DNA of 64,000 nucleotides from Cohnella panacarvi Gsoil 349 (GTDB lineage: Bacteria; Bacillota; Bacilli; Paenibacillales; Paenibacillaceae). Below the pieces are notes generated by a model, which did no database searches, had not been told where the DNA came from, and saw only the letters and a program-made list of their open reading frames with translations. Shown here in pieces: positions 9,582 to 54,683 of this stretch. The stretch lies in NCBI RefSeq assembly GCF_000515335.1, contig NZ_KI911563.1, positions 387,735 to 451,734 of the forward strand, read 5' to 3'. Made by a program: the position numbers and the translations under genes. Positions within the stretch are counted from its first letter, which is position 1; each line of letters opens with the position of its first letter.

Positions 9582-10655
9582 CTATCCATTGTTAGGATAT
9601 TGCTTCAGAACAGCCAGCATATGCCCCAAAACTTCTTTTTCAAAGCTAGCCAGCTGGTCCAGATCCGTTATGATTTTATCAAGATAGCGGGTGTCGTTCT
9701 CTTGTTCCCTTGTGGCCATGTATCTGATCTGTCCATTCCTCATAAGCATGCAGGTGCGAACCATTTTACTATAGGATTCATGTAAGTACGTATAATCAGC
9801 TTCAGCCAGATATCCGTTGTCTTTCAAATATTGGATCCTATCGATCATGCTATTTTTATGCTCTAGCAACACATGAAATGGTCTAAAATCGTACCAAAAT
9901 GTAGGCAAATTCGTTTTGATCGAATTGTATACTTCCAAACCAAAAACAAAATGGGTCAGATTATTTTGAAACATACTAAAATTCCTGGCGGTATCTTTGG
10001 ACTCCAGGTATTCCTCAAGGGTACGAATCACCAATTCGAGATCGAATACGTAGGTTCCTTTAAACGGACCGGAGTTTTTGTACACTTTCTGAATCAATAT
10101 GATCTGACTTCTCCAAATGTTATCATTCTGATCATCGCACTGATCGTATGCTTCTTTAAATGCTTCAAAGCTGATCTCGGAAGCTTCGAACTTATGGTTG
10201 GCTCCTTTATAACCAATGATGTGGAAAATTTGTCTCTCCAGGTCGTAGCCGAAGATTAGGTTCTCATGATCGAATTTCTTGACTTGATAAGCCCAACGGT
10301 CTTTCACATAAAACTCATCCAAATGCAATGCGACATAATGATTCTGGTCAATGCACGCGGTGACGTATTTAATAATATCTCCACAGGTGCTTTGTACTAG
10401 TTGTCTATCCGTGCTCAGGAACGTTAACCAGTTGTTATTTACGTAGTAATTATAGTCTTTTCGCGGACCCATATAGAAATCCAAAGGCACGTCGTAAGTT
10501 ACATTGTAGTCCTTCAAACCGCAAAGTTGTATGAAGTTACTGTGGAACCAGGGCAAGTAATCTTCTTCAGTGGATACAATAGACAAAGCTGTAGCATGCG
10601 AAGAATAGGCGTAAATACGCGGTGTCGCCAAAGGCAGTATTTTAATACTTGTCAT
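9582..10655 (-). CDS. Stand-alone BtrH-N-like protein, likely without catalytic cysteine
   Basis: The 357-residue protein shares its layout with the protein at 45519-46526 and with the last ~320 residues of the megasynthase at 37526-44230. All three have an N-terminal 'AYSSHATALSI'-like segment, a 'GYD' turn after a beta strand ('ENLIFGYDLE' here) and a helical C-terminal half. In BtrH, the butirosin acyltransferase, this fold moves an acyl group from a carrier protein to an amine. Here the residue aligned with the megasynthase Cys1922 is Ala16, while the aligned His (His130) is kept. It may be a binding or partner protein instead of an acyltransferase. It lies 22 kb from the synthase operon, at the edge of an AT-rich segment, and looks monocistronic. 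Confidence 0.62.
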   Translation of the reverse strand: MTSIKILPLATPRIYAYSSHATALSIVSTEEDYLPWFHSNFIQLCGLKDYNVTYDVPLDFYMGPRKDYNYYVNNNWLTFLSTDRQLVQSTCGDIIKYVTACIDQNHYVALHLDEFYVKDRWAYQVKKFDHENLIFGYDLERQIFHIIGYKGANHKFEASEISFEAFKEAYDQCDDQNDNIWRSQIILIQKVYKNSGPFKGTYVFDLELVIRTLEEYLESKDTARNFSMFQNNLTHFVFGLEVYNSIKTNLPTFWYDFRPFHVLLEHKNSMIDRIQYLKDNGYLAEADYTYLHESYSKMVRTCMLMRNGQIRYMATREQENDTRYLDKIITDLDQLASFEKEVLGHMLAVLKQYPNNG

Positions 10656-31364: not shown

Positions 31365-32126
31365 CTAAACCTCTAGGTTCAAATAGTATTGATACACTCC
31401 ATTAAACTCGGTATCGGAATTCCACGGCTTCTCCGGACCCGTAAAATGAAGCAGTGAAGGACGCTGCATCGTCATGCCGTTCCTCCAGAAATAGGATTGA
31501 TAATTCCAAACGCGATCTAACTCGAGGAATTTGTTCTGCAATACAAGATTAATGGCGTCTTGATCCATATATTCCAACGAAAGTTGAGGATTCAGCAAAG
31601 TATCTCGAATTTGAGCGGCCACGTTATTTTCGCGCCATTGCTTTAGGTTGATCACTAGAAAACCCGCATTGAAATATTTCGTTCCCTCGGGTACGACGAG
31701 CCTGCTTTGATCCCACACGCTCAAGAAATCCTCGACGGCCGCTAAGGGGTGCTCGGCGAGATCTATATTCCATACTTCCCTGAGATCGTCTAATACGAGG
31801 ATATCGCAGTCCATATAAATGACTTTATCGCGGTCCGGAATGAGCTCGGGCAAAGCGATTCGATAGAATGTCTCGTGACTGATGTGCGACATTTCGGCAT
31901 TTAACGGATAACCTCTGTATTCATCGTTATTCATCGCAATGAATTTAACGGTCGCTCCGAAAGCGTTAGCGAGCTCATGAATCTCGGATTGCGTTGAGGC
32001 CGGAATATCGGTTTCTAAGACGACTACGGTTACGTTATCCGGCTGGCTAAGGTTGACGAACAACGATTTCAGCATGGTACGCAATTGAACGGAATAAGCT
32101 TTGTTGGCTGCTGTAGCAATAATCAC
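31365..32126 (-). CDS. GT8-family glycosyltransferase
   Basis: This 253-residue GT-A-fold enzyme shows the GT8 signature: DxD metal site in 'VIYMDCDILVLDDL', 'KYFNAGFLVINLKQWRENN', 'YMDQDAINLVL' and the C-terminal 'LLHFTGPEKPWN'. GT8 enzymes transfer sugars with retention from nucleotide donors. It is the last gene of the biosynthetic operon, 15 bp after the NRPS gene, so it may glycosylate the product or a carrier-bound intermediate. A housekeeping cell-wall role is possible but less likely in this position. Confidence 0.85.
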   Translation of the reverse strand: MIIATAANKAYSVQLRTMLKSLFVNLSQPDNVTVVVLETDIPASTQSEIHELANAFGATVKFIAMNNDEYRGYPLNAEMSHISHETFYRIALPELIPDRDKVIYMDCDILVLDDLREVWNIDLAEHPLAAVEDFLSVWDQSRLVVPEGTKYFNAGFLVINLKQWRENNVAAQIRDTLLNPQLSLEYMDQDAINLVLQNKFLELDRVWNYQSYFWRNGMTMQRPSLLHFTGPEKPWNSDTEFNGVYQYYLNLEV

Positions 32127-32141: not shown

Positions 32142-35100
32142 TTACTCTTGTCTAATTAAAGCCAGGGCTTCTTCCATATCCAGATCGCCTTTTTCCATTA
32201 AGGTTAAGATATCTAGGACTTCAAGCCGTTGGCGGCTGATCTTGGAGTCGTTATCCGATGCAGCCTTAGGCTGAAGTTTATCCGCGATAAAGGCGGAAAG
32301 CGCAGAGATGGACGGATATTTAAACAAGTCGGAAACTTTAATCATTCCGGAATAATGTTTGTTGACGGATGCCTGCATTTGCATAAGAAGCAGCGAGGTT
32401 CCGCCGATTTCGAAAAAGTTGTCGTCCATATCCAACTCGTTCGGAACGACTCCGAGTAGTTCGGACCATATTCCCGTCACTCGCTCTTCGACTTCATTGC
32501 GGGGTACAACCGCATGCGAATCCGCGTTCTTGGTTACGACCGGCTTCGGAAGCGCTTTGCGATCCACTTTGCCGTTTCGCGTAAGCGGCATTCTCTCCAA
32601 TCGCACGAAGTGGGACGGGATCATATACGAAGGAAGCTTCGACGCCAAATATCGTTGCAATTGTTTCGCGCTTAATGCCTCTTTGCCGTCTGCGTCCAAC
32701 GCGACGTAATACGCGCAAAGCTGCGTCTCGCCGTGCTGTTCTACCGTAACGATAATCGCTTCCTGCACGTTGGCGTGCTCCACCAGTCGGGCCTCGATTT
32801 CCCCTAGCTCGATCCGGTAACCGCGAATTTTCACTTGATGGTCGATCCTGCCCAAATACTCGATGTTTCCATCCGGCAGCCATCTCGCCGAATCTCCCGT
32901 GCGATACATCCGTCCTTCCGGCTTAAACGGATTCCGGACGAATTTCTGTGCCGTCAATTCCGGACGATTCAAATACCCTCGCGCCAATCCGTCCCCGCTA
33001 ATGCAAAGCTCCCCCGGCACTCCGACCGGCTGCATGCGATCATACCGATCCACGATCCAAGTCTGAACATTGCCAAGCGGCCTGCCGATCGGTACGTTCG
33101 CCGTCTCGCCCTGTCCAGCAGCCGATGCGGCATATCTCGTCGCATATATGGTTGCTTCCGTCGGTCCGTAAATGTTCTCCAATCTCGCCATCAGCGGTAA
33201 TTGGTTGTATCTCTCCACTACTTTAGAGGTAAGCGCCTCTCCGGCTGCGAAAATATATTTTAAAGATCGCAGTTTGGCAACGTCTTCGTCCTCCAGAACA
33301 TTCAAAAACACGCTCAGCATGGAAGGCGCAAAATTGAGATGCGTAATGCGCTGCTCTTCCACTCGTTGAATGATCGTTAACGGATCTTTCTCTTCGCCCG
33401 GCGGCATAATTACAAGCTTCCCTTGTCCGATAAACCAGCCGAACAGCTCGGCTACGGAGACGTCGAACGTATACGAGGTCTTTAACAAATAGGCGTCCGA
33501 AGGCAGCATCGGGTATTCTTGTTCCAGCTGGAATAAAATATTAACGACGGAGCGATGCTCAACCAAGACGCCCTTGGGCTGGCCCGTCGACCCTGACGTA
33601 TAGATGACATAGATCAAGTTATTCGCATGAGCCAAGGGCTCCAGATTCGTACCGTCCGCATGATACGCTTGCTCATGGTCCAGCACGACGATATCACCCG
33701 CGAAACAAGTCCGTTCCCGCCAACGCTCTTGCAATAGCAGCGCCTTCGCCCCCGAATCCTCCAGCATGTACTGGATTCGCTCCTCCGGGAGCATGGGATC
33801 GATGGGGATGTACGCGCCTCCGGCTTTCAAGACCGCCAATATCCCGACAATCATGTCCAAGGAACGTTCGACCAAAATCCCTACGAGTCGATCCGGCTCT
33901 ACCCCTCTTTCCCGTAACGTTCTGGCCAACCGATTCGCCCGCTCGTTGAGTTCCCGGTACGTGAACTGTCGTTCCTCGAATACAACGGCTATATGGTCCG
34001 GCGTCCGCTCTACGTGGTCTTCAAACAATTGATGGATCGTTTTCTCTCGCGGATACGCTTCACGCGTATCGTTGAAGATTTCCGTCAGTTGCCGCGCTTC
34101 TTGTTCATTCAGTATCTCGATTGCACGTAACGGTAGATCCGGGCGCTCGCTTATTACCTCGAATATTCGTTGCAGGTGGATTCCCATTCGTTCGATCGTC
34201 TCGCGTCTGAACAGCTTCGTCGCGTATTCCATGCTTACTGCCAGACCGCCATCCCCAAGCGGTTCCGCTTGCAACGTCAAATCGAATTTTGCGACGGGAT
34301 GTTCAACGGGATAACGCGACGATTCCGCTCCTTCCAGGTTGAACCGTTCCGTCTCCATGTTCTGCAGCACGAACATCGTGTCAAACAAAGGATTGCGGCT
34401 CGTATCCCTTCTTACTAGCGCCTTCTCCACTAATTCCCCGAACGGATATCCCTGATGATCGAACGCTTGCAGCGCGTTGTCCTTCACTTGCTCCAGGAAT
34501 TCTAGAAACGTGAGGTTTCCCTGCGGGTAATTCCTTATCGCCAAGGTGTTCACGAACATGCCGATTAACGGTTCCAGATCCGCATGCATTCTCCCCGCTA
34601 CCGGCGTACCGACCACGATGTCCTCTTGACCGCTGTATGTCCACAACAGCACGTTGTACGCCGCCAACAGCACCATATACAGCGTGCTTCCCGATGCTTC
34701 CGCCACCTTCCGCAGCTTGATCATCGTTTCGCGATCCACCGTGAACCGCATATGATCCCCGGCAAAGCTCTGCATCGCCGGACGCGGATAATCCGTAGGC
34801 AATTGCAATACGGGAATGTCTCCCGCGAACTGCTCCAGCCAGTATCGTTCCTCCCGGGCAGCTTCCGCGCTTCCCTGCCGCTCCAACTGCCACGCGGCAT
34901 AATCTTTGTATTGCACCCGCAGAGGTTCGAGTTCTTCTCCCCGATAGAGACGCTCAAGTTCTCTTAACCCTATTCCGATCGAAATCCCATCGGATATCGC
35001 ATGATGCATATCCCATAGCCATACATGCCGCTCTTCTTCCAACCGGATCAAACCGACTCTGAATAGCGGAGCCATGCCGCAATCGAAAGACCGCACGAAG

Positions 35101-37208
35101 CCTTGCACGAGCTCTTCCAGTTGTTCTTCGCTGCTCGCAACCATGCGCTCCAGACGCGCGTCAAGTTCGTCATGGACGATCTGCACCGCTTCTCCTTCTG
35201 TGAACGTCAACGATGTCCGCAAAATTTCATGCCGTTTGGTCAACGATTGTATTGCCCGCTCCAAGCGGTCTGCGTCCAATACGCCTCTAAGCAGCCGCGC
35301 TTCCGGCATATTGTATCCGGTGTCGACTCCTTCCAGCTGGCTCAATACCATCAGCCGCTTTTGCGCCGATGAAGCCGGATACCTTTCCTGCTTCGTCGAC
35401 GCACGGATCGGCTGATACTGTTGTTTGCGTTGCTTGCCGATATATTCCGCCAACCCTTCCAACGACGGATGCTGGAAGACGTCTTTGATTGTCGCGGAGA
35501 TTCCCATCGCTTGGTGAATTCTTGTCACTAAGTGCATGGCGCGCAACGAGTGTCCCCCGATATCGAAGAAGTCGTCCTTCGCCCCTATCGGCTCGACGCC
35601 AAGCACTTGCTGCCATATGCGGACCAGTTCAGCCTCGACCTCATTGCGCGGAGCAACATAAGTCGCCCCTGTCGTTATGCTTCTCTCGGGAGCCGGCAAC
35701 GCTTTACGATCCACCTTGCCGTTAAGGGTTAGCGGCATCCGCTCCAATTTCACGTAATGCGTCGGGAGCATGTACGCCGGCAAATATCGAGACAACTCTG
35801 CCTTTAATTCGGCGATCGTAAGCGCGTTATCCGCGACGACATACGCGCACAATTGGTTGTGCCCGGCATTGTCTACGAACGCCGTCGCCACCGCTTGTTG
35901 AACCGATGCGATTCGCAACAATTGCGCTTCGATCTCTCCCAGCTCGATACGATAACCTCGAATCTTGACCTGTTGGTCGATCCGGCCCAAATACTCTATG
36001 TTGCCGTCGGGCAGCCATCTCGCCGAATCTCCCGTCTTGTACATCCGCTCTCCCGGCGCGAAGGGGTTCTCCACAAACTTCTCTGCGGTTAGTTCCGGCC
36101 GGTTCAAATACCCTAGCGCCAAGCCGTGTCCGCTAATGCACAGTTCTCCCGGCGTTCCGATCGGTTGCAGTCGGTTGCTTTCGTCGACAATATAGACCCA
36201 AGTGTTCGAGATCGGCTTCCCGATAGGCGGTATTAACGTCAGTCCGTCCTGGTTTCCAATGGTGAAAGTCGTAACGACATGGGTCTCCGAAGGTCCGTAA
36301 TGATTGTGGATTTGAACATTCCTTCGCATGCTCTTGTCAAGAAACGCTCTGTTCAGTTCAAGCTTCTCGCCGGCAACTACGAGATGCTCCGCATGCTGCA
36401 ACAGCTTATTGGATAAGTCCTGATCGGAAATCATATGTTTCAGATAAGCGGTAGGCAAGTATACGGCGGAAATCTCGTGAGTCTCGATGAAGCGAATCAA
36501 TTGCCAAGGATCCTGTTTCACGCTTTCTTGGGCGACAATGAGCGTGCCTCCGCTTAATAGCGTAGAGAAAGTTTCTTGGGTGAAGACATCGAAACCGACG
36601 GACGCCAAAGATAAAGTACGACGCGTATCGATCGTCGTCTTCTGCTGTTGATAAACCAGCAAATTAACGATGCTTAGATGAGGCATCAAGATCCCTTTGG
36701 GCCGTCCGGTCGTTCCTGAAGTATAAATCACGTACATGCAGCTATTGGGGAAGTTGACATGATTAACATGGGAATCGTCCGCATCATAAAACTGCCTGTC
36801 TCCTAAATCTAGTATTTCCCCTGTATATCCCTCCAGCCGCGTTTCTCCCCCATAAGCGAGCAGCAATACCGCTTCGCTATCCTTGAGCATGTACTGGATT
36901 CGCTCATCCGGGTACATACGTTCAATGGGCATGTACGCGCCGCCGGCCTTCAGAATCGCGATCATTCCAACGACCATCTCTATCGAGCGATCCGCCATAA
37001 TGGCCACGATTCGCTCCGCCCCGACTCCCCTAGCCCTAAGCGTTCTTGCCAATCGATTCGCTTGCGCGTTCAGTTCGCGGTACGTGAGTTGCCGTTCCTC
37101 GCATACGATCGCGATGTGGTCCGGCGCCTGCTCGACCTGCTCCTCGAACAACCGATGGATGGTTTTCTCCAACGGATCAGTTGCTGAAGTAACATTGAAT
37201 GCCCCCAT
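32142..37208 (-). CDS. Two-module NRPS, A-T-C-A-T, no release domain
   Basis: The 1,688-residue enzyme has A1 (about 10-505; 'YVIYTSGTTGRPKG'), T1 (Ser554 in 'GGHSL'), C (about 605-1040; HHxxxDG at 735-741), A2 (about 1055-1550; 'YTSGSTGQPKG') and T2 (Ser1605 in 'GGTSL'). It starts directly with A1, so A1-T1 is a loading module. It lacks a thioesterase or reductase, so the chain must pass on. By-eye pocket residues of A1 are D207, V208, Q211, A254, V277, A279, H303, V311, V312 and K498, resembling published proline codes. A2 gives D1249, V1250, A1253, S1296, F1320, A1322, I1346, I1354, Y1355, which I cannot assign. The start follows GGGGGG; the free carrier gene is 23 bp upstream. Confidence 0.93.
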   Translation of the reverse strand: MGAFNVTSATDPLEKTIHRLFEEQVEQAPDHIAIVCEERQLTYRELNAQANRLARTLRARGVGAERIVAIMADRSIEMVVGMIAILKAGGAYMPIERMYPDERIQYMLKDSEAVLLLAYGGETRLEGYTGEILDLGDRQFYDADDSHVNHVNFPNSCMYVIYTSGTTGRPKGILMPHLSIVNLLVYQQQKTTIDTRRTLSLASVGFDVFTQETFSTLLSGGTLIVAQESVKQDPWQLIRFIETHEISAVYLPTAYLKHMISDQDLSNKLLQHAEHLVVAGEKLELNRAFLDKSMRRNVQIHNHYGPSETHVVTTFTIGNQDGLTLIPPIGKPISNTWVYIVDESNRLQPIGTPGELCISGHGLALGYLNRPELTAEKFVENPFAPGERMYKTGDSARWLPDGNIEYLGRIDQQVKIRGYRIELGEIEAQLLRIASVQQAVATAFVDNAGHNQLCAYVVADNALTIAELKAELSRYLPAYMLPTHYVKLERMPLTLNGKVDRKALPAPERSITTGATYVAPRNEVEAELVRIWQQVLGVEPIGAKDDFFDIGGHSLRAMHLVTRIHQAMGISATIKDVFQHPSLEGLAEYIGKQRKQQYQPIRASTKQERYPASSAQKRLMVLSQLEGVDTGYNMPEARLLRGVLDADRLERAIQSLTKRHEILRTSLTFTEGEAVQIVHDELDARLERMVASSEEQLEELVQGFVRSFDCGMAPLFRVGLIRLEEERHVWLWDMHHAISDGISIGIGLRELERLYRGEELEPLRVQYKDYAAWQLERQGSAEAAREERYWLEQFAGDIPVLQLPTDYPRPAMQSFAGDHMRFTVDRETMIKLRKVAEASGSTLYMVLLAAYNVLLWTYSGQEDIVVGTPVAGRMHADLEPLIGMFVNTLAIRNYPQGNLTFLEFLEQVKDNALQAFDHQGYPFGELVEKALVRRDTSRNPLFDTMFVLQNMETERFNLEGAESSRYPVEHPVAKFDLTLQAEPLGDGGLAVSMEYATKLFRRETIERMGIHLQRIFEVISERPDLPLRAIEILNEQEARQLTEIFNDTREAYPREKTIHQLFEDHVERTPDHIAVVFEERQFTYRELNERANRLARTLRERGVEPDRLVGILVERSLDMIVGILAVLKAGGAYIPIDPMLPEERIQYMLEDSGAKALLLQERWRERTCFAGDIVVLDHEQAYHADGTNLEPLAHANNLIYVIYTSGSTGQPKGVLVEHRSVVNILFQLEQEYPMLPSDAYLLKTSYTFDVSVAELFGWFIGQGKLVIMPPGEEKDPLTIIQRVEEQRITHLNFAPSMLSVFLNVLEDEDVAKLRSLKYIFAAGEALTSKVVERYNQLPLMARLENIYGPTEATIYATRYAASAAGQGETANVPIGRPLGNVQTWIVDRYDRMQPVGVPGELCISGDGLARGYLNRPELTAQKFVRNPFKPEGRMYRTGDSARWLPDGNIEYLGRIDHQVKIRGYRIELGEIEARLVEHANVQEAIIVTVEQHGETQLCAYYVALDADGKEALSAKQLQRYLASKLPSYMIPSHFVRLERMPLTRNGKVDRKALPKPVVTKNADSHAVVPRNEVEERVTGIWSELLGVVPNELDMDDNFFEIGGTSLLLMQMQASVNKHYSGMIKVSDLFKYPSISALSAFIADKLQPKAASDNDSKISRQRLEVLDILTLMEKGDLDMEEALALIRQE

Positions 37209-37231: not shown

Positions 37232-37507
37232 TTATCCCTTGACCGCGGCTTGTCGATTCTCGATATAATTCAACAATCTGGACACGCTGTAATTCCCCAA
37301 TCTAATGATTTCCTCGTCCGGCACGCGTATGTTGAAAGTCTCTTCCAATTGGATCACGTACATGGTCAATACAAGGGAATCGAATTCGAATATCTGCTCT
37401 AGCGGTACATGGTCATCGATCTGTTCCGGAGCTTGAATATTGAATTTCTCTTCGCAAAAAACGGCAAACTTTCGAATAAAGGCATCCAATTCGTTTTTGA
37501 GCATCAT
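37232..37507 (-). CDS. Free-standing acyl/peptidyl carrier protein
   Basis: The 91-residue acidic protein has the phosphopantetheine site in 'IFEFDSLVLTMYV' (Ser in FDSL). The helical pattern is that of stand-alone carrier proteins, with a slightly long N-terminus. It lies between the hybrid megasynthase and the NRPS gene, with 18 and 23 bp gaps, and starts after GGAGG. It could hold an intermediate between the two enzymes, or feed a unit to the BtrH-like domain or the glycosyltransferase. Confidence 0.85.
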   Translation of the reverse strand: MMLKNELDAFIRKFAVFCEEKFNIQAPEQIDDHVPLEQIFEFDSLVLTMYVIQLEETFNIRVPDEEIIRLGNYSVSRLLNYIENRQAAVKG

Positions 37508-37525: not shown

Positions 37526-40500
37526 TTAATATTTTACGAGACCGTGGTTGAAATAATCGGATTTCGATAATTCGGGATCCGCTTTTAACTGTACGATGAT
37601 AAGCTTCTCCAGTTGCTTGAGTCGTTCGCATTCGGATTGGAATTCCTCTGCTTCGATGTCCTGCGACATCGTGAATTTAACGATTCGTCTGACCAGGTTA
37701 TCCGCCAATGAACTGCACTGTTGCAGTTGCTCGATCAATGCCGAATCATAGCCGATAAATTGCAAATATTTGGCGAAAATAGCTCTCGATCCGGATATAA
37801 TGTGCAGCGCGTCGATGAATCTTCTCAATTCCGCCATGTTGTTCTGATTGTCGATAATATGACTCAGCAGCGAACCATAAAATGCCGCATCGTCCTTGAA
37901 CGATTCGATCCACTGCCGATACTTCCGTTGCAGCTTCTCTTTATCCGGCGCTTTTCCTATAAAATCGAAATATAGCAAGTACTTCTTCTCGTCATACAGT
38001 TGATTATTGGCATGCCGAAGCGTATCCAGAGGATATCGGTACGTAATATAGTTGGTATGACCGTCATCGAGCAAGGTCACTTGACCCGTGCCGGGATCAT
38101 AACCGGTCACGATAACGGTATGGCCGTCGTTCGGATCGGGCTTCAAGCGCTTGTTCATCTCGGTCGAATGAGGCAGATAGTAGTGATCCACGGATACGAC
38201 AAGCCATTTGCCCCATCTGATTAATGCGAGAAACTCGTCTTCGATGTCCTGGAAACGGCTAAACTCCTTGTATATCATTTGAAGGCCGATGTCCGAAAAC
38301 TCCTCTTCCTCGATCAAATACGAGGTGCTGTACGCCCATTTCATCACGATTTTGACTTCGAACAATTGTCTTACGATTTCCTCCGTGCTTTCGAACGAAT
38401 TATAAAGCAGCAACTCGATTGGTACGCCTTTGCTTTGAAGATAGCTGATTAATTGTCCCTTATAACAGCTTAGAAACTTGTGGTCGAATCGTTGTAAATT
38501 CATAGGCTCCTCCAATTGGGTTAAAGATGGGTACTGCTCTTGCGTTTGAGGCTGCGGATCGTTCATGCGGTTCGGTTGATCTCTATCATAATGTCTTGCC
38601 ATCAGATGCACGGTTCTGAGATCGAAGACCAGCAGATTGTCCGAAGGGAACCCTGCTTGTTCCATTTCCACATCGAGATGAACGGCCTTGAGCGATGTCC
38701 CGCCCAGTTGAAAAAAGTCGTCATGAATGCCTACGGGAGATACGCCCAGCACTTTGCTCCACACTTTCGCCACCGTAGCCTCCAGTTCGGTCTCCGGGGC
38801 AACATACGGCTGGGCCATCTCTTTTCTCGTCTTTACGGATTTGATAAGGCCGAGCAATCGTTCCCCCGTATAGGCTTCAAGCGGAACGTAATGGTTTCCG
38901 TGTCTCAGCCGCAGCTCATTCACGGTTTCCATCTCCCAGTCGATAGCGGTCAAGCTATCCGGTATATTCGACGCTGCGGCGACCGGATCGATAGTCGGAA
39001 ATTCGGCGAGCCTGTCAACATTCGGTTCATTTGGCTCATGAGAGCCGATGTCTTCCAACGGTTCATTGAACTTGATAGCCAGATGCTGGATCGCATCGGG
39101 CAATAATGCAACAGGAATAGCATAGTGGTCTGCCTCTTCGGTCCATCCGCTCCGCTGCAGAAACTGCAGGAACGGGGCATTCTTCTCCGTGGGAACGAAA
39201 CGCATCATCACCTTGCTTAGTTGCCGCTCCTTGCACAATGCTTTGAATGCGGCTAGCACCCCGTCTTCAACCCCTTTGCCTAATACGCGGCAACTGAGCA
39301 TGAACGCATCGATCCACAGCGCCTGATTGCTCTCGTACCAGAATAAGCAGCCCGTTAGCCCGTAATCGCCGAACCGATCCCTGACCTCGACCACCCAGCA
39401 GCTGCGATCGGGATGGGACACCCATGACTGCACCTCCTGCTCCGACCTGCGAATGGTGCTGGAATTGAACTGGTTCGTTCTTTGCGTCAGTTGAACCGTC
39501 CGATTCCGTTCCGAGGATGTCATTGGCCTTATGCTGACTTGCAGCTTTAGATTGAGCAGGAAATCGGCAAGCGAAGTTTCCGGATGGTGCGATTCCCGGC
39601 GGTCGCGCTCCGCTTGAACCATCGACGTACGGTTGCGATCCTCATCCGTAATCCTAATCCGGTCCAATGCCCATAGATGCTTAACGAACATTGGAATCGC
39701 CTGACGATGACCGGGAAGCTGCACGGTAAGAACATCCGGGCAACGATTCATCACTTCCGCGCATTCGATCGGATTGTCATCCAGGAATAGGATGCTATCC
39801 AGGCCGACGTTCAACTCTCGGGCAAGTTCCGTCAGATTGTCCGATTTCGCTTGCCAATTGATCCGCCAAGCCGCAAGATGCGACTTCTTGAGCAGCATCC
39901 CTTCATTGTTCTCGAACGTGTCCCATACGTCTTGTTCGGTATTTTTGCTGCACAGCGCTATCAACATGCCTTCCCGCTGCTTCTGAATCACAAACCTTTG
40001 CAGCTCTCTGTACGGGTCTTCCACGCGGACGCCGAGCGGTCCGTCCTCGCCGCAAACTCCTTGCCATAACGTATGGTCGCAATCGAGCACGATCACTTTA
40101 AAGTGCTGCCGTTTCCAGGCAATCAACCTTCTGGCAATCAACGTCCCCGTTACGGCCTCATATTCCGTCGTAAATGGCAGGTGCCCCTTGGCGTCTTTGT
40201 TCTCATCGAAGACGGACCTTACCTGGTACAGAGAAGACGCCTCGCGCAAGTCGACGGCGATAACGCCGTCCATTTGTTCGATTGCATCCAGCCATCGATT
40301 GTTCAGGCTTTCGATACAGCGAATAACGTCTTCGCTCAAGCCTAGATGCGTGGAAACAGGAAAAATTCCCACGAACCAAGTCGCGTTCATCTGTCTATGA
40401 TTGAACATATTCAGCCATTCGCGGTACGTTTGCTCCAGTTTGCTGCATTGTTGCGCATCCGTCGCCGTGTCGTCGCGTATCCAGTCCTCCATGCGGAGCA

Positions 40501-43500
40501 GCAGCACGTTCGCTCCCCGATTCACGGATAGCAAGCTGTCAGGGTCCAATAGTTGTTGAAAGATTTGATTATAAGGAGCGATCTTTACCTGCATCTCCAA
40601 TTGAAATTGGTTCAGCCACCAATGGATATAAGGCTCCAGCGATTCGGCGGTAAACGTGGCAGCGACGGCTACGCAACTCGCTTCGTCTATCGAACGTTGT
40701 TGTTTCATCGTCTGATCGGGTAGGAAAGGAATAGCCCAATCCGGTTCGTTCGGCCGCTCCAATAGGATGGCAGTAAGCTGTTGGAACCGCTCTGCGAACC
40801 GCTCCATGGATTCGGGCTTAAATAAAGCGGTATTATATTGCAGATTGCATGCCAAACGATCTTCTTCGAGATGCACGTCCAGCTTGAAATCCACCGTAGC
40901 GACATCATGCTGCCATTGAACATCTTGGATATCCAACCGGTGCTCGACGGCATCATCGTCGGAACCGAGTTCGTTATGGAACAGGAAGAGCGTATCGTAG
41001 ATCGGGTTTCTGCTTGCGTCTTGATTAGCTCCCAGCTTCTCGACCAGTTCATCGAACGGATACATCTGATGATCGTAAGCATCGATGAGCGATCGCTGAA
41101 CGTCCGCGACATGCTCGGCCAGCGTGGTTCCTTCCTTCACGTTCAACCGGATCGGAAGGAAATTGGCGAACATCCCGATGACGCGCTCCAGCTCCACCTG
41201 CAATCTGCCGGCAACAATCGTGCCGATGATAAGGTCATTCTGACCGGAGTAAGCATGGAGCAACGCCGAGTATACGGCGAACAAGACGGAATTCAACGTT
41301 GCATCGTTATTTTTGGCGAACAGCTTCAGCTTGTCGGTCATTTCGTTCGAGATCGTAAAATGTATCGTATTTCCCGCAAAAGTCTGCTTCGTCGGCCGCG
41401 CGAAGTCGAGAGGCATTCGCAATACGGGTAACTCGCCCGCCATGACCGTTTCCCAATACTTCGCCTGTCTGTGCATGGATAGCGTGTCGCCTTGTTCCTT
41501 CAGCCAGACGGCGTAATCTTTATATTGAACGCGGAGAGGCGAAAGATTCTCTCCGGCATACAACAGGCGCAATTCGTCCAATAAGACGCGCAAGGAAAAA
41601 CCGTCCGAAATACTATGGTGCATGTCCATGAGGAGGATATGCTTATCCTCTGACATCTTCAGCAGCTCGACGCGGAATAACGGGGCGCTGCCTAAGTCGA
41701 ACGGTTTGACGAATGCGCGAATTTTATCCGGCAATTCGTCCTCCGTCACGTTGCCGAATTCGAGTTCTATCGGCACCTCGGGTCGTATATGCTGCATCAG
41801 CTCCCCTTCCACCCAATGGAACGATGTTCGGAACGCTTCATGGCGCTGCGTCAATTGCCGCATCGCTTCGGCAAACCGCGCGTAGTCTATCCTTTCGTTG
41901 ATCGTATGAACAACCGGTATATTATAAGAAGTCAGGTCCCGCGATTTTCTCTCCAGAATATACATTCTTCGTTGCGCGGGCGTCGTCGGATAGTAGGATT
42001 GAATCGTTGCCGGACGGATTTCGGCACACGAGATCGGGTCCGTATGATCGATTTCCCGCGCAAGCATTCGCAGCGTTGGATTGGCGAAAACTTGATTCAA
42101 TAGGAGATCGACTCCGAATTCCTTCTGCACTCTGGACAACATGAGTCCCGCGATTAAGGAATCTCCCCCTAATACGAAGAAGTCGTCCTCTCTATCCATC
42201 GTCGCAACTCCGAACATCTCGCCCCATAATTGGGCAAGCTTCCGTTCGGTTTGCGTGAAAGCCGCAACATCTCCTTGGAGCTTAACCGCAACAGGCCGGT
42301 CGTCCTTATCCGCAGTCTCGGGCCAAGTAACCCAGCAGCGAATCCGTTCAAAGGAATAGGCGGGCAAGTTAACCCTCCTGCAGCCGCCGGATGGATACAA
42401 TCGGTCGAAATCCACCTTCGCACCGGAAACATATAGACGGCCTATTTGCGATAGGGGGAGCCGGTGCAGCTCCTCTTCCTCGAATTCGATCGGATCCGTC
42501 CGATTCGGCTTCGCTCCTCTGGCTGTCCGTTCGCCATAATAGATATCGGAACGTGTCATCCGCGTAAGATCGGACGTGCACAGACTATCTATTTTCTCTT
42601 GCCAATCCTCCAAGCTTGTTACGATGAACGCCAATCGATAATCGTAATGACCTCTGCCTGTATTTTGCGTATAGCAGACGTCGCGCAGGTTCGGCATTTC
42701 CCCCCAGTTCTTGTGAATATATCGGCGAAAGTTCGAAATCATCTCCTTTAGAGACTGCAAGCTCCTGGCCGAAATGGTGAATAGCTCTGTCGTATTCGCC
42801 CCTGGCCCGGTTGCGCGTCGAACGACCGGCGCTTCTTCCATCACCATATGGCAGTTCGTACCGCTTAGTCCGAATGAACTGACCCCGCATCTGCGAGGAG
42901 TACCTTCCGTCTTCCATTCCGTCAATCGGTCGAGGACATAGACGGGGGATCGTTCGAACGTAATTTCCCGATTCGGTATACGAAAATGAAGGTTGGGCGG
43001 AAGCTGTTTATTTTTGAGCGCCAGCGCCGCCTTCACGAGTCCTGCAATGCCGGCCGCGCTATTCAAGTGACCGATGTTCGACTTGAGTGCGCCGAGCGCG
43101 CAAAATTGCCTTCTTCCCGTAAAACGCTCGAATGCGCTGCTGATCCCTTCGATTTCGACGGGATCTCCAAGCTTGGTTCCCGTACCGTGAGCTTCAATAT
43201 AAGTGATCGTCTGCGGATCAACGTCGGCATCTTTCCATGCGGCGGCAATAACATCCGATTGAGCTGCGGCGTTCGGGGCGGTAATACCGATCGAACGTCC
43301 GTCTTGGTTGAGGGCACTTCCTTTAATGACGGCATAGATGGAGTCGCCATCCGCTAGCGCCCGTTTCAGCGGCTTCAGAACGATCGCAATCGAGCCTTCG
43401 CCTTCGCCGGTACCGTCGGAGCCGTCGTCGAACGCCTGCGTTCGGCCGTTAGAAGATTCGATGCCTATTCGGACCTCTCTCTCTGGAAGTCCCCAATAGA

Positions 43501-44230
43501 CATTCACGCTTCCGGCAATGGCCTGATCGCAGTCGCCGGTCTGAATCGCCTTGCACGCCATATGTACAGCCACTAACGACGAGGAGCAGGCCGTATCCAC
43601 GGTAAGAGTCGGGCCTTTGAAGTCTAATAGATACGCGATTCGACTTGCGATCATGGCCTGAATATTGCCTACGAACGACATATGCAATTCTTCGGGATTG
43701 CTCTGCTCTATCATTCTGCTGTAGGGGATTTCAGGCGGGGAATATCCTACGTATACGCCGGTCTTCGTGCCGGACAATCGGTTTCCTCCGTACCCCGCAT
43801 CTTCTATGGCCTTCCAGGCGGTTTGCAGGAATATCCGCTGATGGGGATCGGTCATATTGGCTTCTGCCGGAGACATACGAAAAAACGGGTGATCGAAGGT
43901 ATCGACTTCTTCCAAATACGCTCCTTCTTTGAAGCGAATGTCCGAATGTTCTGCCTCATTCAGAGCGGCTTTGTAGTTAAGATAATCTTGTTGACGCCGA
44001 TCGGGAAAAGGTCGAACGAAATCGGTTTCGGCTTTCAATAGCTCCCAGAATTGTTCGGCGTCCTCCGCAAGCGGCAGCCGCGTGGAAATCCCGATGATTG
44101 CAATATCCCGGTTGTCCGTCCGTCTGTCCGATTGTACGGCTTTCAAATGTTGGATCAGTTGCGCTGCGATGTCCTTGTCCAGCTTGCCGGCGGAGGTATG
44201 CTCCAATATGGATTTCAATAATGCGTCCAA
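37526..44230 (-). CDS. Hybrid PKS-NRPS megasynthase: KS-ACP-C-FkbH-ACP-BtrH-like
   Basis: The 2,234-residue enzyme has these domains. KS, about 40-465: Cys215 in 'DTACSSS', His348 in 'EAHGTGT', His388 in 'NIGHLNSAAG'. A linker of 200 residues without AT, KR or DH. ACP1, Ser691. Condensation domain, about 745-1165, HHxxxDG at 871-877. FkbH region, about 1190-1710: HAD motif DxDxT at 1383-1387 in 'VLDCDHTLW', 'FLDDNPIEC', then a GNAT-like part. ACP2, Ser1846. BtrH-like domain, about 1910-2234, with Cys1922 in 'LSCYKGQ', His2037 in 'DGHTVIVTGYD' and Asp2055. FkbH proteins load glyceryl from 1,3-bisphosphoglycerate onto carriers, so 'C-FkbH-ACP' reads as a module that condenses a chain with glycerate. 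The start is TTG 44230 after GGGAG, overlapping the transferase gene by 16 bp. Confidence 0.92.
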   Translation of the reverse strand: MDALLKSILEHTSAGKLDKDIAAQLIQHLKAVQSDRRTDNRDIAIIGISTRLPLAEDAEQFWELLKAETDFVRPFPDRRQQDYLNYKAALNEAEHSDIRFKEGAYLEEVDTFDHPFFRMSPAEANMTDPHQRIFLQTAWKAIEDAGYGGNRLSGTKTGVYVGYSPPEIPYSRMIEQSNPEELHMSFVGNIQAMIASRIAYLLDFKGPTLTVDTACSSSLVAVHMACKAIQTGDCDQAIAGSVNVYWGLPEREVRIGIESSNGRTQAFDDGSDGTGEGEGSIAIVLKPLKRALADGDSIYAVIKGSALNQDGRSIGITAPNAAAQSDVIAAAWKDADVDPQTITYIEAHGTGTKLGDPVEIEGISSAFERFTGRRQFCALGALKSNIGHLNSAAGIAGLVKAALALKNKQLPPNLHFRIPNREITFERSPVYVLDRLTEWKTEGTPRRCGVSSFGLSGTNCHMVMEEAPVVRRATGPGANTTELFTISARSLQSLKEMISNFRRYIHKNWGEMPNLRDVCYTQNTGRGHYDYRLAFIVTSLEDWQEKIDSLCTSDLTRMTRSDIYYGERTARGAKPNRTDPIEFEEEELHRLPLSQIGRLYVSGAKVDFDRLYPSGGCRRVNLPAYSFERIRCWVTWPETADKDDRPVAVKLQGDVAAFTQTERKLAQLWGEMFGVATMDREDDFFVLGGDSLIAGLMLSRVQKEFGVDLLLNQVFANPTLRMLAREIDHTDPISCAEIRPATIQSYYPTTPAQRRMYILERKSRDLTSYNIPVVHTINERIDYARFAEAMRQLTQRHEAFRTSFHWVEGELMQHIRPEVPIELEFGNVTEDELPDKIRAFVKPFDLGSAPLFRVELLKMSEDKHILLMDMHHSISDGFSLRVLLDELRLLYAGENLSPLRVQYKDYAVWLKEQGDTLSMHRQAKYWETVMAGELPVLRMPLDFARPTKQTFAGNTIHFTISNEMTDKLKLFAKNNDATLNSVLFAVYSALLHAYSGQNDLIIGTIVAGRLQVELERVIGMFANFLPIRLNVKEGTTLAEHVADVQRSLIDAYDHQMYPFDELVEKLGANQDASRNPIYDTLFLFHNELGSDDDAVEHRLDIQDVQWQHDVATVDFKLDVHLEEDRLACNLQYNTALFKPESMERFAERFQQLTAILLERPNEPDWAIPFLPDQTMKQQRSIDEASCVAVAATFTAESLEPYIHWWLNQFQLEMQVKIAPYNQIFQQLLDPDSLLSVNRGANVLLLRMEDWIRDDTATDAQQCSKLEQTYREWLNMFNHRQMNATWFVGIFPVSTHLGLSEDVIRCIESLNNRWLDAIEQMDGVIAVDLREASSLYQVRSVFDENKDAKGHLPFTTEYEAVTGTLIARRLIAWKRQHFKVIVLDCDHTLWQGVCGEDGPLGVRVEDPYRELQRFVIQKQREGMLIALCSKNTEQDVWDTFENNEGMLLKKSHLAAWRINWQAKSDNLTELARELNVGLDSILFLDDNPIECAEVMNRCPDVLTVQLPGHRQAIPMFVKHLWALDRIRITDEDRNRTSMVQAERDRRESHHPETSLADFLLNLKLQVSIRPMTSSERNRTVQLTQRTNQFNSSTIRRSEQEVQSWVSHPDRSCWVVEVRDRFGDYGLTGCLFWYESNQALWIDAFMLSCRVLGKGVEDGVLAAFKALCKERQLSKVMMRFVPTEKNAPFLQFLQRSGWTEEADHYAIPVALLPDAIQHLAIKFNEPLEDIGSHEPNEPNVDRLAEFPTIDPVAAASNIPDSLTAIDWEMETVNELRLRHGNHYVPLEAYTGERLLGLIKSVKTRKEMAQPYVAPETELEATVAKVWSKVLGVSPVGIHDDFFQLGGTSLKAVHLDVEMEQAGFPSDNLLVFDLRTVHLMARHYDRDQPNRMNDPQPQTQEQYPSLTQLEEPMNLQRFDHKFLSCYKGQLISYLQSKGVPIELLLYNSFESTEEIVRQLFEVKIVMKWAYSTSYLIEEEEFSDIGLQMIYKEFSRFQDIEDEFLALIRWGKWLVVSVDHYYLPHSTEMNKRLKPDPNDGHTVIVTGYDPGTGQVTLLDDGHTNYITYRYPLDTLRHANNQLYDEKKYLLYFDFIGKAPDKEKLQRKYRQWIESFKDDAAFYGSLLSHIIDNQNNMAELRRFIDALHIISGSRAIFAKYLQFIGYDSALIEQLQQCSSLADNLVRRIVKFTMSQDIEAEEFQSECERLKQLEKLIIVQLKADPELSKSDYFNHGLVKY

Positions 44231-45459
44231 CCGCTGTTCACTCCCGTTTCCATCATCATTTGGTTTATGCGTTCGCTTTGCTCGTCAACGGGAACCTTTT
44301 TGGTCCTAAAGATCGTCTGCAACATAGCCAGCGCTTCTCTCATATGTTCTTTCCCCGGCACGACGACCCCGTTGGTTATCCGTTCCAGAAGAGCGCGAAT
44401 GCTTTCATACGGTCGAACGACGCCTGCTTCATACTCCTCGTCGTTCCAGTTGGCGTTTCTGGTGCTTACCGCCATCGCCAAACAACGGGAGACGAAGAGC
44501 GTCACGGTCTCGTTTAGTCCCGTCGGGGGCACTTTCGCTAGGGGCTGGAGTTCGTTAATACCTTTGTCGACGCTATGTACGATCAGATTCGGGATATTCT
44601 GGGCGGCTAGTTTGCCGACGACGGCCTGCGGTCCCATATCGATAACCGCAGCGATATGTCGGCTGTGCAGATAGTCCATGCAGTCCGCCCAACGTACCGG
44701 AAGACTCATCTGCAGCGTCAATTTCCGGACGATTTGCGATTCGTCCTCATAAGGCATGCCGTCTACATTGGCAAGAACCGGCCATCGGGGCGGCTTGTGT
44801 GCGATTCGATTGAGCTGTTCGGCGAATTTCCGGGCAGCCGGAATCATCAGCGGACTGTGGAAGGGACCGCTTACAGGCAAACGCAGCAGACGCGCTCCCA
44901 TGGACGCCAACTGTTCTTCAACCTTCAGAACGGCTGTCCGATGACCGGAGATCACGGTTTGCATCGGCGAATTCACGGTAGCCAGAACAGCGAACTCCTC
45001 CGAGGTCGATGCCTGCTCGCAAACTTCCTCGATGATCCGAATGTCCAGATTTCCGACGGCTGTCATGATTCCGTTGCCAAGGGCTCTCGCTTCCTGCATG
45101 AATTGTCCGCGAATCCGTACCAGCTTAACCGCATCGAAGAATGAAAAGGATCCCGCGGCGGTTAAAGCCGTGATCTCGCCCAGACTGTGGCCTGCAAGAT
45201 ACGTCGGCTCCGTGCCTACTTCCTGCATATACACGCTGAATGCCGCATAACTAACCGTTAGAATCGCGGGCTGGGTGAATTCCGTGAGCGATAATCGCCG
45301 TTCTTTGTCTTCGAAGCAGAGCTCGCGCATATCCATATGCAACGCGTCGCTCGCTTCTTCGAAAATCCGTTGTGCCATCGGATAGGCGTCGTATAATTTT
45401 TTCCCCATTCCTATTGCCTGAGCGCCTTGCCCTGGAAACAAGAAAGCGTGACGAGTCAT
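44215..45459 (-). CDS. Trans-acting malonyl-CoA:ACP acyltransferase with C-terminal extension
   Basis: The 414-residue protein has a FabD-type acyltransferase in the first ~290 residues: 'FLFPGQGAQAIGMGKK', nucleophile in 'LAGHSLGEITAL', and 'SGPFHSPLMIPAARKFAE'. A ~120-residue extension follows that I do not recognise as an oxidoreductase domain. Because the KS-containing megasynthase has no AT, this enzyme is the likely loader of ACP1 in trans. The ATG at 45459 has AGAGG 9 bp upstream; an ATG three codons earlier abuts that site. Confidence 0.9.
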   Translation of the reverse strand: MTRHAFLFPGQGAQAIGMGKKLYDAYPMAQRIFEEASDALHMDMRELCFEDKERRLSLTEFTQPAILTVSYAAFSVYMQEVGTEPTYLAGHSLGEITALTAAGSFSFFDAVKLVRIRGQFMQEARALGNGIMTAVGNLDIRIIEEVCEQASTSEEFAVLATVNSPMQTVISGHRTAVLKVEEQLASMGARLLRLPVSGPFHSPLMIPAARKFAEQLNRIAHKPPRWPVLANVDGMPYEDESQIVRKLTLQMSLPVRWADCMDYLHSRHIAAVIDMGPQAVVGKLAAQNIPNLIVHSVDKGINELQPLAKVPPTGLNETVTLFVSRCLAMAVSTRNANWNDEEYEAGVVRPYESIRALLERITNGVVVPGKEHMREALAMLQTIFRTKKVPVDEQSERINQMMMETGVNSGWTHY

Positions 45460-45518
45460 ATTCGCCATCCTCTTTTCCTCTTACGCCGCTCGTTCATCAT
45501 TTCAATACTCCTTTCTAT

Positions 45519-46526
45519 TTATGAAATCTTCTGGATTTCTTCACATAATGAGGTTATCACCCTTTCCTCCGATAATTTCATGGAATCCAAGATCGGAATG
45601 ATCGACTTCGCGATATCGAAATCCGGCTTAAGCATGTATTTTAGAATGATCGTTTTCATAAATCCTGCGTCTCTGATTACACTTTCGTATTCCGCTCTCA
45701 ATCGGCGAATCTCAGGATTGTCATACTTATTGATCAGATTATCCATTAGTTTCCCGACGCTCGCTTTGTGTTCATGGAAGACGTAGAAAGGAAGATGGAG
45801 CGTATTAATCAAATCGCTGTGTCCATGTAAAAAGCGTTTGATTTGCTCGTACACGGATATTCCGAAAGCTCTTTTTTCCGGCGGATCTCTGATGAGCAAC
45901 AGATCTTGGGAGGAGTTCGATGACGTTACATAATCCTGCAACAATCGATAAGCAAGTTCCAATTGAAGTTGATGACGATAATCCGATTGATAAGTGAATA
46001 ACGTTAATACGTTCCATGCATGCTCCGAAGCGATGGACTTCTCCATCAGACGGAACGGTACTTCATTCACTTGCAGCTGGCCCCTTGTCGTATTGGCATA
46101 GTCGTATACATAAAAGCATTGTTTATCGAGATCATATCCGGTTATAAGCAGATTGTTTTTAAAGTGTCCCTGATTATAGGAAAACGAATGCGGCATATAG
46201 TAATCGTCATGAATGACGTATATAAAGCTGCCTTGATCGATAACATCAATCAAAAATTCGTGAATGGGCCTTTTTAGGTAGTCGATATGAATCGTTTGAG
46301 TGTGATCTAACCATGGAATGGTGCTCGATCTAATCGGAATCTCGTCGAATAGATAAAAATCCAGCCAGTGCACGTTCTCATTAAAATCAAATCTTTGATA
46401 GAGCTGCAAATAATGGTTGCAAATCCAAGACTCGTTCTCTTCGTAGTAGCTTAAAATCGATAGAGGCAACGCATGATGTTTATAGGCCGAAATATACGGC
46501 TTCACGACAGGCAGTTGTTTAATCAC
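45519..46526 (-). CDS. Stand-alone BtrH-N-like protein, catalytic residues replaced (GTG start)
   Basis: First gene of the biosynthetic operon, 335 residues. It aligns by eye with the C-terminal domain of the megasynthase: 'KPYISAYKHHALPLSI' against 'KFLSCYKGQLISYL', and 'NNLLITGYDLDKQCFYVYDY' against the His2037 loop. The residue at the Cys1922 position is Ala14, and the His position is Asn. It also shares segments such as 'PFYVFHEHKASV' with the protein at 9582-10655 ('PFHVLLEHKNSM'). A scaffold, chaperone or substrate-presenting partner of the active domain is my inference. The start is GTG 46526 after GGAGAG. Confidence 0.68.
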   Translation of the reverse strand: MIKQLPVVKPYISAYKHHALPLSILSYYEENESWICNHYLQLYQRFDFNENVHWLDFYLFDEIPIRSSTIPWLDHTQTIHIDYLKRPIHEFLIDVIDQGSFIYVIHDDYYMPHSFSYNQGHFKNNLLITGYDLDKQCFYVYDYANTTRGQLQVNEVPFRLMEKSIASEHAWNVLTLFTYQSDYRHQLQLELAYRLLQDYVTSSNSSQDLLLIRDPPEKRAFGISVYEQIKRFLHGHSDLINTLHLPFYVFHEHKASVGKLMDNLINKYDNPEIRRLRAEYESVIRDAGFMKTIILKYMLKPDFDIAKSIIPILDSMKLSEERVITSLCEEIQKIS

Positions 46527-47543: not shown

Positions 47544-47575
47544 AAACTCCGCCAGCCATTCGGCCAGCGGAGTTT
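47544..47575. terminator. Bidirectional terminator between converging genes
   Basis: Stem AAACTCCGC (47544-47552) with GCGGAGTTT (47567-47575), followed by TTTTTC on the plus strand and A/T on the other side. It serves the PPC-like gene and the gene at 47600-48754. Confidence 0.85.
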
Positions 47576-53570: not shown

Positions 53571-54683
53571 TTAACGCGAAGAAGCGCAAATGATCGAGAC
53601 GAGATTGATGTTTCCTTCCGATAAACCGACATGCCACTCATCGATCCGCCTTGCAAGTAAAGGCCATGAGAGCAGATCTTGAGTTTGAAGCGGATTGGCC
53701 GGCTCAAACCCGGACAATTGAAGCCGTTGAATCCAAGATGCGGTTCGTTCATGCCTCTCGACCCGATCCGTCTCGGGTACTCCGAGTACGTCTTCGATCT
53801 CTCTGCTGAAGAAGATTTTGAGCGATCGCTTCTCTTGAGCCGTGATATCGCACTGATCGATTAAGCGAAACACGTTCGAATAGTGACGCCAACTTTCGGC
53901 GAATCGTTGTCTAACGTCGCGTACGAAATGATCGGAATCGGGTTCGCACAGGACGACGAGTGTCGGTTTAAGAGAATGTATCCGCGACAATAAGATCTTG
54001 CGCGCTGCATCCGGAGCCCCGCCGTGCACATGATGCAGCGAGAACGCCGCGTTGACGAGCAATCTCCCGTCGGATGCCTGGATATCATTCCAGAATTCCG
54101 CTTCAACATCCTCCATGGTCCGTGCGCAGCCGTGAAAATCCAGATGAATGCCCGCCTCTTCCGCTGCTTTCCGTACGCTCGCCTCCGCTGAACCCAGACT
54201 AGCGGGATCCGGTTCGATCGCATGAATGGTCAAGGATACAGGCGGCTTGTTCATCGCGGCAAGACTCTGGATCAGAAGGACAATCTGTCTGCCTGTGCCA
54301 ATTCCGATCTCGAGAAGCTTAAGCGAATCCGCGCCTTCCGCCGCGTTAACCAGACAGCGATTGGCTATCGTTCCCGCTGCCATAGCTACCGGAAATTTGG
54401 AGCACAATAGGTTGAACAACTCGATCTGAGGCACGTCGTGCTGACGAAGATATAAATTCATGACTTCCATTCGAGAACGATCCAATCTGCTCATGAACGC
54501 TTTCCCGAACAGATAGGCAATAAGATCCGCTCCCTCTTCTTCCATGCGCAACGTGCTGATCCAAGACGACAATCGCTTGATCACGTGTCCCCGCCGACCC
54601 TCTAACATATCCTGCAATATCGCTAGGAGCTGTTCCCTTCGTATATCTTCTAAATCGCAAGCTGATACCATGGGCATTGTCAT
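53571..54683 (-). CDS. Bacterial GRAS-family protein (methyltransferase-like fold)
   Basis: The 370-residue protein carries landmarks of the GRAS domain, best known from plant regulators such as DELLA and SCARECROW. A Rossmann-like 'LKLLEIGIGTGRQIVLLIQS' stands at the VHIID position (121-140). 'LLVNAAFSLHHVH' (208-220) lies at the 'N-F-LH' position. 'EPDSDHFVRDVRQRF' and 'HYSNVFRLID' (247-276) match the PFYRE region, and 'ERHERTASWIQRLQLSGFEP' (309-328) matches the SAW region. Bacterial GRAS proteins are predicted small-molecule-binding or S-adenosylmethionine-dependent enzymes. The intact GxGTG loop suggests cofactor binding. It converges on the monooxygenase/DUF3237 pair. Confidence 0.75.
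   Translation of the reverse strand: MTMPMVSACDLEDIRREQLLAILQDMLEGRRGHVIKRLSSWISTLRMEEEGADLIAYLFGKAFMSRLDRSRMEVMNLYLRQHDVPQIELFNLLCSKFPVAMAAGTIANRCLVNAAEGADSLKLLEIGIGTGRQIVLLIQSLAAMNKPPVSLTIHAIEPDPASLGSAEASVRKAAEEAGIHLDFHGCARTMEDVEAEFWNDIQASDGRLLVNAAFSLHHVHGGAPDAARKILLSRIHSLKPTLVVLCEPDSDHFVRDVRQRFAESWRHYSNVFRLIDQCDITAQEKRSLKIFFSREIEDVLGVPETDRVERHERTASWIQRLQLSGFEPANPLQTQDLLSWPLLARRIDEWHVGLSEGNINLVSIICASSR

Follow-up and report, generated by a model that had tools for sequence, protein, structure and literature searches.

A Cohnella megasynthase that joins a C-FkbH-ACP unit to a BtrH/CcbD/CtaG-like terminal domain

How does an assembly line release its product when its last module carries FkbH in place of an adenylation domain and ends in a BtrH-like domain in place of a thioesterase? 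The question is raised by a megasynthase gene of Cohnella panacarvi Gsoil 349, located in a 64,000-nucleotide stretch of contig NZ_KI911563.1 (C1:387735-451734; hereafter, the window). Assembly lines are known to release their products through a small set of terminal domains, mainly thioesterases, reductases and condensation domains. In this protein, the release position is taken by a domain of CcbD/CtaG/BtrH type, directly behind a putative glycerate-loading pair of FkbH and acyl carrier protein (ACP). The reading that we favor, and to which we give an even chance, is that the megasynthase acts at the end of a hybrid line, where it would extend the chain, O-acylate glyceryl-ACP2, and transfer the product through a cysteine to an amine. 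If the terminal domain acts as predicted, it would be a new release domain able to attach amines to polyketide-peptide chains, and glycerate ester formation and amide release would be tied together in a single protein amenable to in vitro tests. The gene and its domains are as follows.

37526..44230, minus strand: megasynthase of 2234 amino acids with the order ketosynthase (KS)-ACP-condensation (C) domain-FkbH-ACP-BtrH; a single open frame with a TTG start and no internal stop
42653..44110, minus strand: KS with its C-terminal extension, residues 41-526 (Pfam; Cys/His/His motifs intact)
42053..42241, minus strand: ACP1, residues 664-726 (Pfam carrier; GGDSL at 688)
40700..42001, minus strand: C domain, residues 744-1177 (Pfam; HHSISDG at 871)
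40103..40693, minus strand: stretch before the FkbH core, residues 1180-1376 (by position only)
39140..40102, minus strand: FkbH core, residues 1377-1697 (NCBIfam, 277.7 bits, cut-off 146.65; Cys1647 invariant, DxDxT motif present)
38651..38815, minus strand: ACP2, residues about 1806-1860 (GGTSL at 1843 and a sequence match over 1806-1859)
37529..38503, minus strand: BtrH/CcbD/CtaG-like terminal domain, residues 1910-2234 (Cys1922, His2037, and Asp2055 or Asp2056)

Domain searches with Pfam and NCBIfam, together with the motifs, confirm the domain order that a preliminary description had read from the translation. Specifically, the KS motifs are intact (TACSS at 213, EAHGTGT at 346, KSNIGH at 383), and the FkbH motif reads DCDHTLW at 1383. 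FkbH lies between the C domain and the carrier, in the position of an adenylation domain, as that description had stated, and Pfam lists no AMP-binding family for the protein; adenylation, reductase and thioesterase families are all absent from its nine listed Pfam families. The start of the gene overlaps the adjacent acyltransferase (AT) gene by 16 nt.

The C-FkbH half shows no loss of catalytic residues. Across 12 aligned FkbH domains that accompany a C domain, 78 positions do not vary, including D1383, D1385, T1387, K1429, D1484, D1485 and C1647, and the HHxxxDG motif of the C domain is intact. A cysteine of FkbH carries the glyceryl group. Of the 36 C domains from the studied loci that were placed in a quick tree, all 12 that precede FkbH, that of the window and 11 others, fall into one 13-row set (support 100, starred). 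The 13th row is the C domain after a start resembling a fatty acyl-AMP ligase (FAAL) in a second cluster of the genome; because it does not precede FkbH, the set is not purely FkbH-linked. Among solved-structure sequences, the sole match of the FkbH stretch is 3slr.

Three described systems, known here and below from excerpts of the cited papers, provide a precedent for this half of the protein. In vioprolide biosynthesis, the C domain of a C-FkbH-T module, T being the carrier, esterifies carrier-bound glycerate with an acyl chain (PMC8949500); corramycin has the same layout, FAAL-ACP-C-FkbH-T, and its glycerate step was proposed by analogy (PMC10099666); and in malleicyprol biosynthesis, an ester-forming C domain beside FkbH-derived sequence joins two chains and works with a terminal reductase (PMC12304814). 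As in vioprolide and corramycin, C-FkbH-carrier replaces C-A-T (A, adenylation) in the Cohnella protein, with FkbH above its curated cut-off, an intact HAD motif and the FkbH cysteine. The acyl donor, however, is KS-ACP and not FAAL-ACP, so the Cohnella module is a variant of the vioprolide module rather than the same module. Furthermore, it is terminal and has a BtrH-like end, whereas the excerpted accounts describe lines that continue as nonribosomal peptide synthetases (NRPSs). BurF of malleicyprol also places a carrier and then a terminal domain behind the ester-joining C domain and FkbH-derived sequence, but according to the excerpt it keeps only the FkbH N-terminal extension (NEX) and ends in a reductase that leads to a butenolide (PMC12304814); the Cohnella protein has the FkbH phosphatase core and ends in a cysteine acyltransferase fold, with no reductase family listed. 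An NEX is carried by some FkbH proteins at the position of residues 1180-1376 (PMC12304814). By analogy with these systems, Cohnella C-FkbH-ACP2 would load glyceryl and form an ester, in line with the earlier proposal that the C domain ahead of FkbH-ACP yields a glycerate ester. A role of FkbH as a hydroxymalonyl- or methoxymalonyl-ACP enzyme was considered and rejected, as no glyceryl-ACP-oxidising dehydrogenase is listed for the six operon genes.

The terminal domain carries the motifs FLSC at 1919 (Cys1922), DGH at 2035 (His2037) and LLDD at 2053 (Asp2055/2056). An intact Cys/His/Asp set had been claimed, with Cys1922 assigned exactly, and the alignment bears this out: the cysteine is kept in 30, the histidine in 29 and the aspartate in 30 of 30 rows (own row included), one alignment picking Asp2055 as the acid and another Asp2056. 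Because these residues are kept as in the relatives, release or transfer of an acyl chain is the natural reading of the domain. Its predicted fold matches the CcbD/CtaG/AziU3 fold group over the whole domain, and these matches are set apart from the other rows; BtrH itself is absent among the solved-structure matches. CcbD/LmbD (PMC12945683), CtaG (PMC6772006) and BtrH (PMC10318531) are acyltransferases; of the three solved folds nearest to the tail, two (CcbD and CtaG) belong to amine acylators, CtaG by proposal. In the excerpted accounts these enzymes are free-standing, whereas the Cohnella domain is fused behind FkbH-ACP. The fold model thus suggests that the tail may transfer an acyl chain from a carrier to an amine.

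The position of the tail is that of a thioesterase, and papain-like peptidases are among its lower fold matches, which would suit hydrolysis to a free acid or ring closure through an amine or hydroxyl of the chain itself; the first amino acid of the operon's NRPS may be un-acylated, and its amine would then be available for such a ring closure. Such a thioesterase appears improbable to us, as the closest folds lie well apart from the peptidase rows and the free relatives of the domain lie by ACPs, ligases or FkbH.

A tetronate-like ring, as suggested in the preliminary description, is chemically reasonable. The tail would then be a Dieckmann cyclase, with the alpha carbon of the beta-ketoacyl ester acting as nucleophile on the glyceryl thioester to give a 3-acyl-5-hydroxymethyl-tetronate, all on one polypeptide. 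The ester expected on ACP2 is the substrate for such a ring closure, and no ketoreductase is among the Pfam families listed for the megasynthase. Tetronates arise from FkbH-loaded glycerate by acylation and Dieckmann condensation, and free tetramate Dieckmann cyclases use a Cys-Asp-His triad (both PMC4979870). Like the tetronate cassette of FkbH, ACP and a FabH-like enzyme (PMC4979870, PMC7489565), the Cohnella locus has FkbH and a carrier for glycerate, and a beta-ketoacyl partner; unlike the excerpted cassette, it has C and BtrH-like domains in cis. The excerpt reports a FabH-like enzyme in all tetronate clusters sequenced by 2016 (PMC4979870), whereas Pfam and NCBIfam list none for the six operon genes, the remaining genome not having been searched for one. 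Furthermore, the nearest solved folds of the tail include the amine acyltransferases, with no Dieckmann cyclase recognised, and a comparable ester in malleicyprol was shown not to pass through a tetronate (PMC12304814). Dieckmann cyclisation is therefore unlikely in our view. A little less likely again is a one-polypeptide tetronate synthase in which a family of acyl-transfer enzymes has come to close rings as a release domain, making the FabH-like enzyme of the reviewed clusters unnecessary.

We searched overlapping samples of 295 family, 37 genus and 398 phylum genomes, which cover part of the species. FkbH is present in 88 of the 295 family genomes. The tail matches in 40 of them, and the only other frame above 1000 aa bears the domain N-terminally, before A-T (G069); matches are found in four of the 37 genus genomes, and the 398 phylum genomes yield only the window's own at E 1e-8. 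Against genome contigs, the tail alone gave no named ortholog, and a three-row tail alignment gave three loci, all with free-standing relatives (Paenibacillus pinihumi, Fontibacillus phaseoli and P. antarcticus). Two of 72,556 plasmid records match: that of Vibrio halioticoli holds a free relative with no FkbH nearby, and the stretch from Nonomuraea has no gene recognised by the profile used. Genome mining of the family for the C-FkbH-ACP-BtrH order, which had been proposed as a check, returned no frame other than the window's with both FkbH and BtrH among the matches listed.

FkbH and BtrH also occur as neighbouring genes. Among the matches listed, 20 other genomes have both; in four (G046, G170, G237 and G253) they lie within 10 kb of each other, against 0.27 pairs expected under random placement (P 1.8e-4, a generous null since biosynthetic genes cluster), and in the other 16 they do not. 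By eye, all four FkbH-near BtrHs retain the cysteine at the right place. In G170 (L108), FkbH directly adjoins BtrH, and in G253 (L107:6213-10300), consecutive genes encode FkbH, ACP and BtrH, accompanied by a second BtrH-like protein. The tail of the window is thus a fusion of partners that occur side by side. The L107 locus also has matches to capreomycidine synthase and arginine/enduracididine hydroxylase models, which hint at an amine partner. The separate genes of L107 and L108 would also suit a self-contained glyceryl-transfer unit, FkbH-ACP2-BtrH, in which BtrH moves the glyceryl group itself and the C domain is otherwise employed or bypassed. This we regard as very improbable, given an intact C domain of the FkbH-tied group and esterification as the excerpted precedent for C-FkbH-T (PMC8949500).

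Is a BtrH-like domain at the end of an assembly line peculiar to the window? A BtrH profile matches in 127 of the 295 family genomes at E 0.001, and the matches listed include, besides the window's, at least 28 frames of at least 900 aa in at least 26 genomes. Twenty of these frames were inspected; being selected by length, they show position and residues, not frequency. The domain is C-terminal, after the last carrier, in 19 of them, in KS-ACP, C-A-T, A-T or longer arrays (L118-L135, L109), and N-terminal in the remaining one (G069, L063). The Cys, the His and the Asp of a VDxYY motif are kept in all 20 terminal domains, window included, and the third acid is Glu in 15 of the 20. The BtrH_N cut-off is passed by four of six scanned terminal domains (L118, L120, L129 and L130); of the other two, L126 is not listed and L127 scores 29.0. 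For L119, L120, L121, L124 and L132, the profile of a BtrH-like family without the cysteine outscores the tail profile. In a quick 57-row tree with flagged long branches, the 19 terminal domains cluster together (support 90, not starred), whereas the window domain is nearest to free-standing BtrHs and is held by no starred set. Since it stands apart from the 19, a separate fusion is likely, though not proven.

Like the window protein, the 19 lines have a cysteine acyltransferase-like last domain and, at many loci, a discrete AT, a small ACP or a Cys-less BtrH-like protein; unlike it, they are without FkbH. Related domains thus terminate 19 further inspected lines in this bacterial family, probably as the result of a separate fusion, and may represent an undescribed class of release domain. 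The preliminary description knew of no described cluster with the layout of the window protein. This holds for the layout as a whole, but the C-FkbH-carrier module (vioprolide, corramycin) and chain joining by a C-domain ester (malleicyprol) are already in the excerpted literature. The acyltransferase family is also known; no description of C-FkbH with BtrH, or of a BtrH/CcbD-type domain ending an assembly line, was found in the open-licence papers searched, and the combination looks new.

The megasynthase gene is the third of six minus-strand genes, a putative operon that the preliminary description does not mention, running from 46526 to 31365 in the order BtrH-like, AT, megasynthase, ACP, NRPS, glycosyltransferase. 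Judging by strand and spacing, the six would form one transcript. The neighbours are as follows.

47544..47575, minus strand: terminator-like hairpin of 14 pairs, a pattern match between a gene at 47600 and the operon
45519..46526, minus strand: free-standing BtrH-like protein, 335 aa; catalytic Cys and His missing in the alignment
44215..45468, minus strand: discrete malonyl AT, 417 aa (fabD model, 287.6 bits against a cut-off of 260.9)
37232..37507, minus strand: small discrete ACP, 91 aa (Pfam, NCBIfam)
32142..37208, minus strand: NRPS A-T-C-A-T, 1688 aa (two A domains, one C domain and two carrier stretches; order from the translation)
31365..32126, minus strand: glycosyltransferase family 8 (GT8), 253 aa (165 bits)

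Read with these neighbours, the favored role as last enzyme of a hybrid line would proceed as follows. The NRPS, which has no C domain at its front and no listed release domain, would pass its chain to the KS; we propose this order only because the operon holds no other release domain, and docking similarity is not used. The discrete AT would load a malonyl unit, with which the KS would extend the chain once, so that ACP1 would hold a beta-keto chain, and FkbH would load glyceryl from 1,3-bisphosphoglycerate onto ACP2. The C domain would esterify the glyceryl hydroxyl with the ACP1 chain, as in vioprolide, and the tail would move the acyl chain from ACP2 to Cys1922 and on to an amine acceptor, possibly a free amine, an amino sugar or a carrier-bound amine, releasing an amide. 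The GT8 enzyme may add a sugar.

Several observations weigh against this reading. No gene of the operon could be assigned to an acceptor, and the NRPS gene follows the megasynthase gene rather than preceding it. Docking between the C-terminal tail of the NRPS and the N terminus of the KS was rejected, since a local similarity score of 26 was equalled by 393 of 2000 shuffles. The Pfam match to BtrH_N (PF14399, residues 1972-2055) reaches 22.4 bits (E 1.5e-4), below the gathering cut-off of 29.7, so the assignment of the tail rests on predicted fold and conservation. The fold model, built from four sequences, is moderate (mean predicted local distance difference test, pLDDT, 68.9), and the first 70 tail residues, Cys included, average 34-60 per ten-residue block. 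Identity to the solved relatives is 9-14%, and the Cys-His-acid set is placed by sequence, no residue-by-residue match to CtaG having been obtained. Not every member of the fold group acylates amines, as AziU3 is an aziridine-forming enzyme. Finally, there is no FkbH within 10 kb of the two nearest free relatives inspected in their gene context (L074, L075) or of the Vibrio relative (L116), and the link between BtrH and FkbH is therefore not general.

The neighbourhood also bears on a different role of the tail, as a condensing rather than a release enzyme that passes the chain to an amine on the small ACP or on the first T domain of the NRPS. CtaG was proposed to act from a carrier on a carrier-bound amine (PMC6772006, excerpt); the NRPS opens directly with A-T, so that no C domain stands before its first T; and the genes run in the order megasynthase, ACP, NRPS. 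As in the window, a small ACP gene lies immediately beside the BtrH-ended gene in four of 18 fetched loci (L129, L131, L133 and L135), and further megasynthase genes follow the BtrH-ended one in L118 and L122. A condensing role would, however, leave the NRPS with no release domain and the KS with no obvious starter, and in the five KS-ACP-BtrH loci (L129, L131, L132, L133 and L135) no further megasynthase follows the BtrH-ended one within the 20 kb stretch. It is the likeliest of the alternatives, though still doubtful.

The two A domains of the NRPS, read by eye at the signature positions and not by a test, have the signatures DVQYVAHVVK, presumably Pro-like, and DVANFAIIYK, to which no substrate was assigned. 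Terminator-like sites are overall no commoner than in shuffles, the scan for promoters and terminators together being at shuffle level, and Rfam gave no match at gathering level in 28000-52000.

KS-ACP-C-FkbH lines with other endings are found in the family, one of them in the same 4.77 Mb genome (C1:493441-528700; L011, L012). In this second cluster, a 3003-aa protein opens with an AMP-binding domain (Pfam, 201.9 bits), of FAAL type by eye, followed by a carrier (Pfam, 51.6 bits). Besides a discrete AT, there is a KS-ACP-C-FkbH-ACP-C-A-T-C protein of 3479 aa that shares 41% identity with the window megasynthase over residues 37-1849 of the latter. The A domains of the cluster read as Ser-type by their signature. 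The cluster also contains a phosphopantetheinyl transferase gene and, between AT and megasynthase, a gene for a CAAX-type membrane protease.

With the whole megasynthase as query, matches at E 1e-300 are found in 25 of the 295 family genomes; at most two places per genome were scored, and the counts are lower bounds. Cover from KS through FkbH (query start at most 41, end at least 1697) is reached at no fewer than 18 further places; with the Cohnella genome counted, these lie in at least 13 genomes. Eight of the 18 lines were inspected, and none has a BtrH-like terminal domain; seven continue to a further C domain (L055, L056, L057, L058, L060, L061 and the second cluster). In L054:6987-13967 (G003), KS-ACP-C-FkbH-ACP ends in a reductase (NAD_binding_4, 162.3 bits), with FAAL-ACP-like and AT genes next to it; the arrangement is reminiscent of BurF, the butenolide-forming protein of malleicyprol biosynthesis. 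In L059:4766-14087 and L064, a KS-AT-T-C-FkbH-ACP protein stops at its last carrier; in L059, a gene for a branched polyamine synthase of BpsA_C type (135.5 bits) follows, as does a second FkbH, which is free-standing.

Cys-less free-standing BtrH-like proteins are encoded in the window at 9582-10655 and 45519-46526 and, twice, in the second cluster at C1:522694-524819. Among 40 aligned matches of this family from the fetched loci, a His column is kept in all 40 and no Cys column exceeds 10. The 335-aa protein was rejected as a specific partner of FkbH because its family is present in 136 of the 295 family genomes at E 1e-20. Its fold model is poor (pLDDT 43.7), and neither its profile nor that of the tail gave a useful match among solved-structure sequences. 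Elsewhere in the window, a 370-aa protein (53571-54683) matches the GRAS domain family, best known from plants, with 128.4 bits.

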